NCBI GenBank assembly: GCA_003223215.1
Contig: QHYH01000086.1
Span: forward strand, 21,224-85,223
From: Acidobacteriota bacterium
GTDB lineage: Bacteria; Acidobacteriota; Terriglobia; Acidiferrales; UBA7541
Reading direction: 5' to 3'
Length of the DNA: 64,000 bases
Shown here: in pieces, positions 14,976 through 47,493 of the stretch
How positions within the stretch are numbered: position 1 is the first letter of the stretch
Layout: every line of letters begins with the position of its first letter
The notes under the pieces: model-generated
Seen by the model: only the letters and a program-made list of their open reading frames with translations
Databases searched by the model: none
What the model was told of the DNA's origin: nothing
Position numbers and translations under genes: made by a program

Positions 14976-15449
14976 TCAAGAAGCCGCGAGCTCGAAAGAT
15001 GAACTGAGCTGTATGGCCCTGTGTAGGGTGCGATAGAGCGGGCAGCGCATGGCGTAAACGCCATGCGTACGTTCGACTGTCTCCCTGACGCTTTCGGGCG
15101 CCACCAAGCGCATCGCCACATGGATGCGGCGGATGACTAGCACGCCGTCCTCCGTTTCCACCTCGCCGGTCACTTCGGCCGTCAATTTCCCATTGCAGGC
15201 ATCAATTTGGCGTGCTTCCAGCGCACCTCCGAAAGTGCCCATCATTCAACCGGCAGTTGCGGAAACGACGTAATCAATCGTCGAGGAGTGCGACTCCTGC
15301 AACTTTGCGGGGTCAATTTTGTAATGTTCGGCGATGGCCCCGTGGACGCTATAAATCACGGGCTTGGACTCGCCGGGCAGGTGCGCAATGCGGAGCGGGC
15401 CCTCGCGGCGTTCTATGCGCGATTTCGAAACATAAACGACGTTACTCAT
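14976..15449 (-). CDS. OsmC-family peroxidase, candidate selenoprotein with in-frame UGA
   Basis: OsmC/YhfA proteins reduce organic hydroperoxides with two cysteines. The frame from ATG 15449 runs through SSTIDYVVSATAG to a TGA at 15246-15248, then continues without a shift through MMGTFGGALEARQ and MRCPLYRTL to the true stop at 14976. In the family the residue after the Ala-Gly is the peroxidatic Cys (AAGGC in YhfA), and the TGA sits exactly there. The second Cys (CPLYRTL) is intact. A hairpin with a G-starting loop lies 20-34 nt after the UGA. Sec in OsmC-like proteins is known from metagenomic selenoproteome surveys. Without Sec machinery the product would stop at about 67 residues. Confidence 0.78.
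15212..15226 (-). promoter_or_regulatory. bSECIS-like hairpin in the OsmC-family gene
   Basis: In the mRNA, GUGC pairs with GCAC around a 7-nt loop GCUGGAA. The loop starts with G, 24 nt after the UGA. Bacterial SECIS elements need a G in the first two loop positions, roughly 16-37 nt after the UGA. The stem is short (4 bp, extendable past a bulged G), so support is moderate. Confidence 0.5.
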
Positions 15450-15498
15450 GGTCTTCACCCTTCCGATCAATCTTCCCTCGTTCAATCAACCCTAGAAT

Positions 15499-16574
15499 CT
15501 ATTTGTGTTGAATCGCCTTGGGAGATCGCTTCAGGTCAAGAGGTCGAATCTGCAACTCCCATTTTACCGGGACTGACGCAGGCGGATAGCAAATCGTCTT
15601 ATCGCAGGCTTGATATCGCAGTTCTCCTCCAATCGAAACCGTCTTGCTGGCTGATAACAGCGCCCGTAGGCCATCCCCGAGACTTTAGACGCACCAACCG
15701 TTACATCCTGTGTAATCCTGAAGCTGCCGTCGAATACCGGGACTTGTTCCTTGATGGCTTCCAAGTAAAGGGTTTTAGGGGTGGGGTAAATCACGGGCGC
15801 CGGCTCAATTCCGCCGGGCGCCTGCAAGATCAACTGGATAGGCTTGTATCCCCGCACTCCCGGAGAATACACGTGAACATCTGGCGGAAGTTTAATTTCT
15901 GCCGTTAACGTGACGCGGCTGCCTGCGACTACGGTCCGATCCGATTGGGAAAGAGTGAGTTGAAGGTGGGGCGCCTCAACAGCTTGGCTAACTTCCTCGT
16001 TTAGTTCAGGGAAAAGCTTCCCAAAGACATTGTTCGCCGTGAAACGGTTGGTGTATTTGGCTTCGAAAAACTTCTCACGAACAACCCCGCCTGAATCGAT
16101 ATAAAAGAATCCGGGATAGGCCATTCCCTTGGTCATGCCTTGGGCTTCGGCGTTGAGCACCTTAAAACTTCGGATGATTTCAGAGTCAGGGTCAGCCAAT
16201 AAAGGAAATTCGATCTTGTGCCGCTCAGCGAAATCCTTCAGGATCGCGGGGCTATCGTAGCTGATGGCGGCAAGTTTGAGGCCTTCGGCTTCAAATCTTC
16301 TCTTCGCGTTTTGCAACTGCACGAGCTGCGCTTTGCAGAAGGGTCACCAATCCGCAGAGCGGAAGAAAAGAAGAATTGTGCCCTTCGTACCCTTCAGAGT
16401 CTCGTTGGACTGTCCTCTGCCGAATTGATCGGGCTGGCCAAACGCAGGAGCGTGCTGGCCGATTTCCAAGCCAATAGACGGAGCAAGGGGAGGTTTGTCC
16501 GGTGGCATTTCCTGTTCGGTAGGAACAGAAAAGGCAACCAGAACCAGCAAAAGAAAGACACTCCCGACCTTCAC
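15499..16574 (-). CDS. Redoxin fused to a DsbD-alpha-like domain, candidate selenoprotein (UxxC), with one frameshift
   Basis: The N-terminus is a signal or anchor (MKVGSVFLLLVLVAF). A thioredoxin/AhpC-type domain follows, with LLFFRSADW, then TGA (16344-16346), then PFCKAQLVQL. The TGA replaces the first Cys of the CxxC active site. Downstream, FPLLADPDSEIIR and AYPGFFYID are normal redoxin blocks. The C-terminal half is like the DsbD N-terminal domain (VTLTAEIKLPPDVHVYSPG, then YQACDKTICYPP with its redox pair). That pair appears only after a one-base shift at about 15685, giving a stop at 15499; the unshifted frame ends at 15564. A bSECIS-like hairpin follows the UGA. Probably a periplasmic thiol/selenol oxidoreductase. 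Confidence 0.75.
16312..16337 (-). promoter_or_regulatory. bSECIS-like hairpin in the redoxin gene
   Basis: In the mRNA a lower stem UGCAA/UUGCA, a small internal loop and an upper stem GCGC/GUGC enclose the apical loop AGCUC. The loop G at the second position lies 18 nt after the UGA. Stem layout, loop size and distance all fit the published bacterial SECIS model. Confidence 0.6.
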
Positions 16575-16640: not shown

Positions 16641-17450
16641 CTAGTTGATAAAACGCGCAAATCCTGCCCCCAAGACTCTTCCCACCTCTGCCTCCTGAAC
16701 AATCACCACGATCCTGAGATTTTTTGGATTCCTGGAATTGAGATCTACCTTCACGTCGCGGGAAAACGCAGCGGTTTCATCCACTACGCCGATGCGGATG
16801 AGGTTTCGCAGAACTGCCACATGCTGAAGCGTCCTTCCCGCATTCTCTCCACGACTCACCTGCGACTCGTCACTGTTGTCTGCGATAGCCAGAAAGACGC
16901 CAGCGGGGTGCACGGCGACGGAGGAAGGTAACGGCCCGGCTTCGATATGAACCGTAGCAGCTTCACGGTCGCCAGAGGCAAAAGAGATGCTCACTGGAGC
17001 CTTCCGAGACTTCCCTGCGCCCTTAATCGCCTCGTTCGCTCGGCGTTCATCGCTGCCCACGAATTCGAACCGCCCGTCGACGACCATCTGCGGCGTATAG
17101 ACACTTCCCAAGCCAAACTGGGCCGCGTAGGCGCTTTGCCGTTCACTGTACTCGTGCGAAGAGAAGGGGTCCTTCCATCCGATGTCGTTCCAGTAATCGA
17201 CATGCTCACTCAGAACGATCAGTTCCACGCCGCTTACCGGCTGAGATCGTTCCAGCCTTTGCAACAGAGCATCGGCTGGAGGGCAACTGGAACAACCCTC
17301 GGATGTAAACAATTCGACCAGCACAGGTATACGAGTACCGCCGTCGCCCGTTGATCCCGTTAGTGTTCGCGCAGCGCGAAGGAAGCACACTGACCCCACA
17401 AACGGAATCGAGATTGCCAGTAAAGCGGAGATGGGATGCCTGAGACTCAT
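16641..17450 (-). CDS. DUF1223 thioredoxin-like secreted protein
   Basis: A 269-residue protein with an N-terminal hydrophobic segment (about residues 8-28) and the DUF1223 core VELFTSEGCSSCPPADALL. It carries a CxxC pair (Cys54 and Cys57 region), followed by LSEHVDYWNDIGWKDPFSS and YTPQMVVDGRFEFVGS, all typical of this thioredoxin-fold family. The function is not established; exposure to the periplasm and a thiol-redox role are inferred. Unlike its two downstream neighbours it keeps ordinary cysteines. It is 66 bp upstream of the redoxin gene on the same strand. Confidence 0.85.
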   Translation of the reverse strand: MSLRHPISALLAISIPFVGSVCFLRAARTLTGSTGDGGTRIPVLVELFTSEGCSSCPPADALLQRLERSQPVSGVELIVLSEHVDYWNDIGWKDPFSSHEYSERQSAYAAQFGLGSVYTPQMVVDGRFEFVGSDERRANEAIKGAGKSRKAPVSISFASGDREAATVHIEAGPLPSSVAVHPAGVFLAIADNSDESQVSRGENAGRTLQHVAVLRNLIRIGVVDETAAFSRDVKVDLNSRNPKNLRIVVIVQEAEVGRVLGAGFARFIN

Positions 17451-46965: not shown

Positions 46966-47493
46966 TCAGGTGATGCGTTCGATGCGCAGTTTCTGAATGA
47001 TGACGGGCGTGCGCGGGCGGTCGTTCGAGTCGCGCTGCACATTCGAGATTTTGTTGGCCACATCCTGGCCTTCCACGACTTCTCCAAAAACCGTGTGCCG
47101 GTTGTCCAGCCAAGGGGTTGCCGCGACGGTGATGAAAAACTGGCTGCCGTTGGTGTTCGGGCCGGCGTTGGCCATCGAGAGGATTCCGGCTTTCGAATGG
47201 TTCAGCGACGGATGGAATTCATCGGCAAACTTGTACCCTGGCCCACCCATGCCATTGCTTTGCGGGCACCCGCCCTGGATCATGAATTGCGGAATCACAC
47301 GATGAAAAATCAATCCGTCGTAGAACGGCCGCTTCTCTTTTTGCCCGGTTTTTTCGCTGGTGAATTCCTTCGTCCCCTCGGCCAGCCCGACAAAATTGGC
47401 AACCGTCTTCGGCGCCTCCTTCTCGAGCAGCCGCACTACAATATTCCCCTGCGAAGTCTCAAAAATCGCGTACGTTCCTGCCGGTCGGCTCAT
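46966..47493 (-). CDS. Cyclophilin-type peptidyl-prolyl cis-trans isomerase
   Basis: 175 residues, cytosolic since no signal is seen after ATG 47493 (preceded by AGGAGAAC). Family blocks: YAIFETSQGNIVVRLLEKEA, FHRVIPQFMIQGGCP with the catalytic Arg, GILSMANAGPNTNGSQFFIT and TVFGEVVEGQDV. It speeds proline isomerisation during protein folding. An insertion EFTSEKTGQKEKRPFYDG before the catalytic block is a normal loop in bacterial members. Confidence 0.92.
   Translation of the reverse strand: MSRPAGTYAIFETSQGNIVVRLLEKEAPKTVANFVGLAEGTKEFTSEKTGQKEKRPFYDGLIFHRVIPQFMIQGGCPQSNGMGGPGYKFADEFHPSLNHSKAGILSMANAGPNTNGSQFFITVAATPWLDNRHTVFGEVVEGQDVANKISNVQRDSNDRPRTPVIIQKLRIERIT

Follow-up and report, generated by a model that had tools for sequence, protein, structure and literature searches.

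The question raised by this locus is how the TGA codon at positions 16344..16346, which lies on the minus strand at the active site of a redoxin gene, is read, or whether it is only the trace of a damaged gene or of an erroneous base. The gene is located in the window, i.e. the whole 64,000-nucleotide stretch analyzed here. Its reading frame extends on the minus strand from GTG 16574 (inferred as the start) to a TAA ending at 15564, and the only interruption is the TGA at 16346-16344. With this codon translated as U, the gene (15567..16574, minus strand) encodes a protein of 336 residues, in which residue 77, the putative selenocysteine (Sec), opens a UPFC active-site motif (...LLFFRSADW-U-PFCKAQLVQL...). 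The sequence-only reading had already placed FRSADW, the TGA and PFCKAQLVQL in one frame, and we indeed find no shift at the TGA; it had also assigned the codon to the first position of the redoxin UxxC, where the Cys residue of TGC-containing homologs aligns with it. Homology was likewise correctly predicted to go on beyond the TGA: the Pfam AhpC-TSA match runs across it (residues 38-167, 99.5 bits with a cut-off of 26, E-value 1.6e-28), and there is also a match to Redoxin (64.6 bits, cut-off 26.6). The extent originally given to the feature, 16312-16574, ends just past the hairpin discussed below, and homology in the same frame runs to about 15,685.

The window protein thus combines an AhpC-TSA/Redoxin domain above the cut-off with a UxxC motif (UPFC), the combination used to define the Prx-like/Redoxin UxxC selenoproteins, and it scores only 45 bits against the SelL-related redox protein family NF040769, whose curated cut-off is 120. 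Residues 216-295 resemble the DsbD_N domain with a score of 21.2 bits, below the cut-off of 25; the homologs L103 (37.7 bits) and L107 (27.1 bits) exceed it, hence in its full-length form the protein is a redoxin joined to a DsbD-alpha-like domain. No DsbD_N match was reported in the Cys-containing homolog L032:3001-3873, a stretch that stops short of the domain end. Standard translation (table 11) halts at the UGA and the two halves of the gene are listed as separate frames, so genes of this kind appear cut at the active site.

We regard it as very probable that 15567-16574 encodes a selenoprotein, namely an AhpC/TSA-fold redoxin with a UPFC site, whose UGA is translated as Sec with the aid of SelB and a downstream GU-loop hairpin. 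SelB carrying Sec-tRNA(Sec) would decode the UGA, and a short hairpin located 15-31 nt downstream, with a conserved GU in its loop, would guide the decoding. The UGA is conserved, the Sec machinery is present, the hairpin is conserved and contains compensated pairs, and in one clade these features are absent together. The genome to which the window belongs (8.80 Mb in 279 contigs, 97.65% complete) contains the full set of genes proposed earlier as a check: selA (568 bits, cut-off 268), selB (354 bits, cut-off 242), selD (351 bits, cut-off 125) and a tRNA-Sec (65.4 bits, cut-off 47), which ARAGORN independently annotates as tRNA-SeC with the anticodon tca. All four are on contigs other than that of the window. 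The selD gene itself (L020, G000:C89) contains one in-frame TGA, found near its start in the context AG-U-AAKLSP.

To follow the codon through related genomes, we searched 95 genomes of the order, each representing one species, and extracted the loci of the best 30 matches. At the position of U77, 26 of these loci carry TGA (one of them, L131, being only about 35% identical), three carry TGC, and in one (L130) the position is not covered. The redoxin UGA therefore falls in the Cys column of its homologs and is kept across several species. In a collection of genome contigs, all 75 named loci found have TGC or TGT in this column, which agrees with the earlier expectation for Cys-containing homologs, although this count leans toward Cys, because one of the six search patterns contained the motif with Cys, and near relatives of the window may be missing from the collection.

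The distribution of the Sec machinery largely follows that of the codon in the genomes examined. An above-threshold selA was found in 82 of the 95 genomes, including 23 of the 26 with a TGA gene; the exceptions are G063, G074 and G092, which are 73, 79 and 71% complete, respectively. G063 and G074 possess selB above the cut-off and a tRNA-Sec recognized by ARAGORN. In G092 searches for selA, selB and tRNA-Sec found none, and a TGA gene in a genome with no detected sel genes counts against the Sec reading, with the reservation that this assembly is the 71% complete one. The three TGC genes reside in G088, G089 and G090 (89, 94 and 97% complete). In these genomes selA gave no match at an E-value of 0.001, and the best selB matches (97 to 197 bits) all remained below the cut-off of 242. 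Their best matches to the tRNA-Sec model (46.2, 47.0 and 46.6 bits) are identified by ARAGORN as tRNA-Ser, tRNA-Ser and tRNA-Leu; this negative result covers the best match per genome among the 150 candidates scored out of 780-989, and a second match in G089 sits right on the cut-off with 47.0 bits. The tests for selB and tRNA-Sec cover eight of the 95 genomes plus that of the window.

In the phylogenetic tree (33 rows, midpoint root) the TGC genes form a single clade (support 100/99), which groups with the TGA genes of G064, G065, G066 and G092 (7 rows, 91/92), and this group is in turn nested within a larger clade of 22 rows, comprising 19 TGA and 3 TGC genes (98/94). The most distant TGA row, L131, lies outside the main TGA clade, on a long branch beside a Cys row. 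The simplest reading of this topology is that a single Sec-to-Cys change accompanied the loss of the Sec machinery; it is one event and not three, hence the genome counts overstate its weight. UGA, the G of the hairpin loop and the sel genes occur jointly in most of the genomes examined, and one clade lacks all of them. The order-level set thus amounts to a natural experiment, and the redoxin family is well suited for studying how Sec is lost and for testing SECIS rules in bacteria other than enterobacteria.

The putative SECIS element was examined in an alignment of 42 nt from the 26 TGA-containing sequences (24 of them distinct), which required no gaps. The proposed apical hairpin (16313..16329, minus strand; loop CGUGC at 16323-16319) is formed by nucleotides 15-20 after the UGA pairing with nucleotides 26-31. 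In this stem of 6 bp with a 5-nt loop 98.6% of cells are paired, and three of the six pairs (15-31, 18-28 and 19-27) have changed on both sides, while slid versions of the same stem have 0-46% of cells paired. RNAalifold, run unaided, returned the same stem. The loop reads CGUGC in the window copy and in the relatives L103 and L105, and GGUCC, GGUCG or GGUUC in the other members; its G22 (16322) and U23 (16321) are invariant in all 26 TGA homologs. All three TGC genes have A instead of G22 and have lost pair 15-31. The GU loop resembles the one in the SECIS of E. coli fdhF.

A different hairpin, with the loop AGCUC and its G located 18 nt after the UGA, had been proposed from the window sequence, and the alternative in which Sec is inserted but this structure (7-11/28-32 plus 13-16/22-25) serves as the working SECIS is the one that survives best, although we consider it improbable. 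It can form in the window copy, with -8.9 kcal/mol on a 38-nt cut, pair 14-24 shows a double change in four distinct sequences, and only 3 and 2 of 500 shuffles, respectively, match it in the fraction of cells paired and in the covariation score. On the other hand, only 84.7% of its cells are paired, 19 of the 24 distinct sequences break one of its pairs, and 381 of the 500 shuffles contain at least as many double-changed pairs, as opposed to the nearly complete pairing, the invariant loop GU and the choice of RNAalifold in the case of the GU-loop hairpin. On 45-nt and 54-nt stretches of the window copy, folding favors the CGUGC-loop hairpin (-10.3 kcal/mol for the 45-nt one). No fold of the three outperforms its dinucleotide shuffles (z from -0.09 to 0.44). 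Judged by the 26 TGA homologs, which favor the GU-loop hairpin, the AGCUC hairpin is probably wrong as the SECIS.

Published rules contribute little to this choice. According to an excerpt of PMC13188914, a bacterial SECIS is a stem-loop located 16-37 nt after the UGA, with a loop of 3-9 nt, a G at loop position 1 or 2 and a minimum free energy of -7.5 or lower. The CGUGC hairpin agrees with this rule (its loop begins after 20 nt, on a 6-bp stem, with -10.3 kcal/mol on 45 nt). The AGCUC hairpin passes as well, as had been claimed for its distance and loop, but so do 74 of 200 random TGAs of the window, and a SECIS-like fold alone means little. In a scan with the rule over 12 redoxin loci and two OsmC stretches, the AGCUC hairpin was ranked best in the window copy; among the other TGA genes nothing was found in L110 and the hairpin was placed elsewhere in L128, while one was reported in L122, which is one of the three TGC genes. 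With misses in TGA genes and a match in a TGC gene, the rule lacks both sensitivity and specificity in this family. Rfam searches found no SECIS family, either in the whole window at the gathering threshold, which returned only a tRNA, or in 16100-16400 at E-values up to 10, which returned two chance matches.

Synonymous diversity provides evidence that does not depend on folding. The ten lowest values among 260 seven-codon segments (0.21-0.28, with a median of 0.517) all belong to segments whose first codon lies between -3 and +6 relative to the UGA. Normalized for residues in 24 of the 29 sequences (the three TGC genes, L129 and L131 being left out), diversity is 0.84 of expectation at codons -7 to -1, 0.64 at codons 1-4, 0.51 at codons 5-11 and 1.08 at codons 12-18. 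Codon choice is therefore most constrained around and after the UGA.

The window copy itself is not intact. Between 15675 and 15682 (minus strand) it shows a net frameshift relative to its homologs: two extra bases appear in the alignment with L130 and, very close by, in that with L157, and past this point the counterpart of the homologs' C-terminal end lies in a different frame. Other full-length homologs end with a sequence like GELKYQACDxxxCYxPxSVP...IRHK; as a consequence of the shift, the window protein would end without the final portion of the DsbD_N-like domain and without the homologous Cys pair located there. Neither this frameshift nor the second UGA gene downstream was mentioned in the sequence-only reading. 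The frameshift is either an assembly error or the onset of decay in this copy. In the tree the window copy groups with three genes of genus g11 (97/93), apart from a clade of 14 rows (100/98) to which the remaining 12 rows from its genus belong, and this position suggests transfer or an old duplication. The same genome contains a broken redoxin paralog (L155, G000:C120), which keeps TGA at the U position, also has a TAG, and is followed downstream by a GGUCG loop; in another genome of the genus a C-terminal redoxin remnant (L157, G017:C99) lies beside an OsmC-like gene with an in-frame UGA.

These features count against the Sec reading, insofar as the copy may be decaying or mis-assembled, and they are what speaks for the TGA being a nonsense mutation or a base error in an ordinary CxxC redoxin: the C-terminus is frameshifted, the C120 paralog is broken, and the neighboring copy in G017 is a remnant. 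We nevertheless find a pseudogene or a sequencing error very hard to accept as the explanation, since 26 of 30 loci have TGA at this position, the genome has the Sec machinery, and the frameshift lies some 660 nt past the UGA and does not account for it. The dN/dS ratios are also low where measurable: pairwise dS is mostly saturated, and for the computable pairs the window copy (L102) gives 0.068 before and 0.065 after the UGA with L103, 0.093 for the C-terminal domain with L104, and 0.225 before the UGA with L105. Equally implausible is that the UGA is read as another residue, by Trp or Gly recoding or near-cognate read-through: any read-through would explain a frame open across the UGA, but the column is Cys in the non-UGA homologs (3/3 loci of the order and the 75 named loci of the partly Cys-seeded search), the genome carries tRNA-Sec, selA, selB and selD, and no selA, selB or tRNA-Sec was detected in the genomes that carry the TGC genes. 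Translation of the UGA as Sec remains by far the preferred reading, as the sequence-only analysis had proposed, and is supported by the sel genes, the aligned Cys homologs and the hairpin conserved in comparative RNA analysis; selenium would then be inserted at this codon.

In the AF2 model, built with 17 sequences, pLDDT averages 86-98 per block over residues 31-170 and 77.3 overall. The best fold matches of the model in the PDB are BcpB (5epf) and AhpE (5c04), with a TM-score normalized to the target of about 0.8, and a ResA-type oxidoreductase is found among the first 50; the best sequence matches among structures are 2cx3 and 3c71. The fold is thus shared with ResA-type oxidoreductases and with BCP/AhpE-type peroxiredoxins, while the active site of the window redoxin is UPFC. 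In the alignment with the peroxiredoxin 2cx3, Cys80 corresponds to its Cys, which we take to be the peroxidatic one, and Sec77 to a Ser three residues earlier. It is Cys80, and not Sec77, that matches this Cys, which makes a plain peroxidase less likely. The TxxC/TxxU motif of peroxiredoxins is absent, as the window protein has Sec77 at the Thr position (2cx3 itself has Ser there); TxxU is given as the motif of Sec-containing peroxiredoxins in an excerpt of PMC1088965, according to which Prx-like selenoproteins carry UXXC instead.

These correspondences suggest that the redoxin would be engaged in thiol:disulfide exchange more than in peroxidase action, acting as a thiol:disulfide oxidoreductase or a thiol-dependent reductase. 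Sec77 would attack the substrate and Cys80 would resolve the intermediate, and the C-x4-C pair in the DsbD_N-like C-terminal domain of the homologs may relay electrons. The N-terminus of the window protein is hydrophobic, and the protein is predicted to be exported.

Immediately downstream we found a second putative selenoprotein gene, OsmC-like (PF02566; 14979..15485, minus strand, with an inferred TTG start at 15485). Frames 15246-15485 and 14976-15245 are in fact one frame divided by the TGA at 15248-15246, and the read-through protein matches PF02566 with 42.2 bits (cut-off 27.5). It therefore has an OsmC domain above the cut-off with UGA at its Cys position, as in the OsmC-like selenoproteins; the UGA column is presumably that of the catalytic Cys of OsmC. 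NCBIfam returned no match for this protein. A search of the order found matches in 35 of the 95 genomes, and among the matches listed 39 places could be assigned: 29 with TGA, 9 with no stop and one with TAG only. The codon (15246..15248, minus strand, context TAG-U-MMGTFGG) is TGA in all 20 loci examined, one of which, L164, also has a TAG. The proposed SECIS hairpin of this gene (15209..15227, minus strand) has the loop GGA and, in the window copy, one mismatched pair. When 45-nt stretches were folded, a full 8-bp stem with a 3-nt loop was obtained in 14 of the 20 loci, a 7-bp stem in L165, L174 and L175, and a 5-nt loop in L172; the window copy and L171 adopt other folds.

The OsmC-like gene adjoins the redoxin in 5 of the 30 redoxin loci (L102, L103, L104, L105 and L130) and also the redoxin remnant in G017. 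Directly upstream of the window redoxin lies a DUF1223 gene with a CSSC motif (16641..17450, minus strand); a relative precedes the redoxin in G075 and G068 too, and DUF1223 is upstream in three of the 30 loci (L102, L104 and L105). These neighbor counts are limited by flanks of about 1.5 kb or less.

Elsewhere in the genome, 7 of 24 AhpC-TSA matches contain an in-frame TGA: the window gene, the C120 paralog, and five further genes (L133, L135, L138, L146 and L153), with the contexts FTGG-U-TKQ (C215), NTSG-U-IIEA (C183), GYW-U-PFC (C64), ASW-U-GC (C222) and HYG-U-IFC (C112). Judged by eye, the TGA sites of these five presumably correspond to redox Cys sites. Together with SelD and OsmC, and excluding the C120 copy, a total of at least 8 selenoprotein genes is plausible for this genome in the three families searched. 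If the lineage is Acidobacteriota, as is probable since the nearest named homologs with the same layout (L027, L030 and L032) carry the labels Acidobacteria or Acidobacteriaceae, this exceeds the figures available for Acidobacteria in excerpts of two earlier reports, namely 4 selenoprotein genes in 3 families (PMC1794560) and 3 selenoprotein genes in Occallatibacter riparius (PMC12013277).

Both families are already known as selenoproteins and the mechanism is ordinary. UxxC selenoproteins of the Prx-like thiol:disulfide oxidoreductase or Redoxin family are listed in the excerpted texts of PMC13188914, PMC9312934 and PMC1088965; the window redoxin shares with them the domain (PF00578/PF08534) and the UxxC, a likeness drawn from published family names and not from sequences, and differs from their description in having the DsbD_N-like domain and, in 5/30 loci, a Sec-containing OsmC as its neighbor. 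For the OsmC-like selenoprotein (PF02566), excerpts of PMC13188914, PMC1088965 and PMC2398784 give a Sec in the OsmC domain within a UxxT motif; a Sec in this domain is common to both, and here the motif is U-MMG-T and the gene adjoins the redoxin. Among the titles and abstract openings listed for papers on selenoproteins, including those on Acidobacteria and Solibacter, none names the redoxin-OsmC pair, although it may still have been published. Some interest attaches to the two adjacent selenoprotein genes, to the fusion with a DsbD-alpha-like domain, and to the linked loss as a natural experiment. It is possible, though less likely than not, that a UxxC redoxin fused to a DsbD-alpha-like relay domain, together with the Sec-containing OsmC and sometimes DUF1223 upstream, forms a conserved two-selenoprotein module acting in one redox or peroxide-repair pathway of a selenoprotein-rich lineage, probably of Acidobacteriota, in one clade of which Sec reverted to Cys as the whole Sec machinery was lost.

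A coding-bias scan of the TGAs in the window ranked that of the OsmC-like gene first and that of the redoxin ninth. Two other TGAs, at 46968 (minus strand) and 30977 (plus strand), also have coding-like composition on both sides, which may be due to chance or be the shadow of a gene on the opposite strand. Among the named loci, the matched stretch of an Opitutae locus (L070, 3001-3444) contains one in-frame stop codon.
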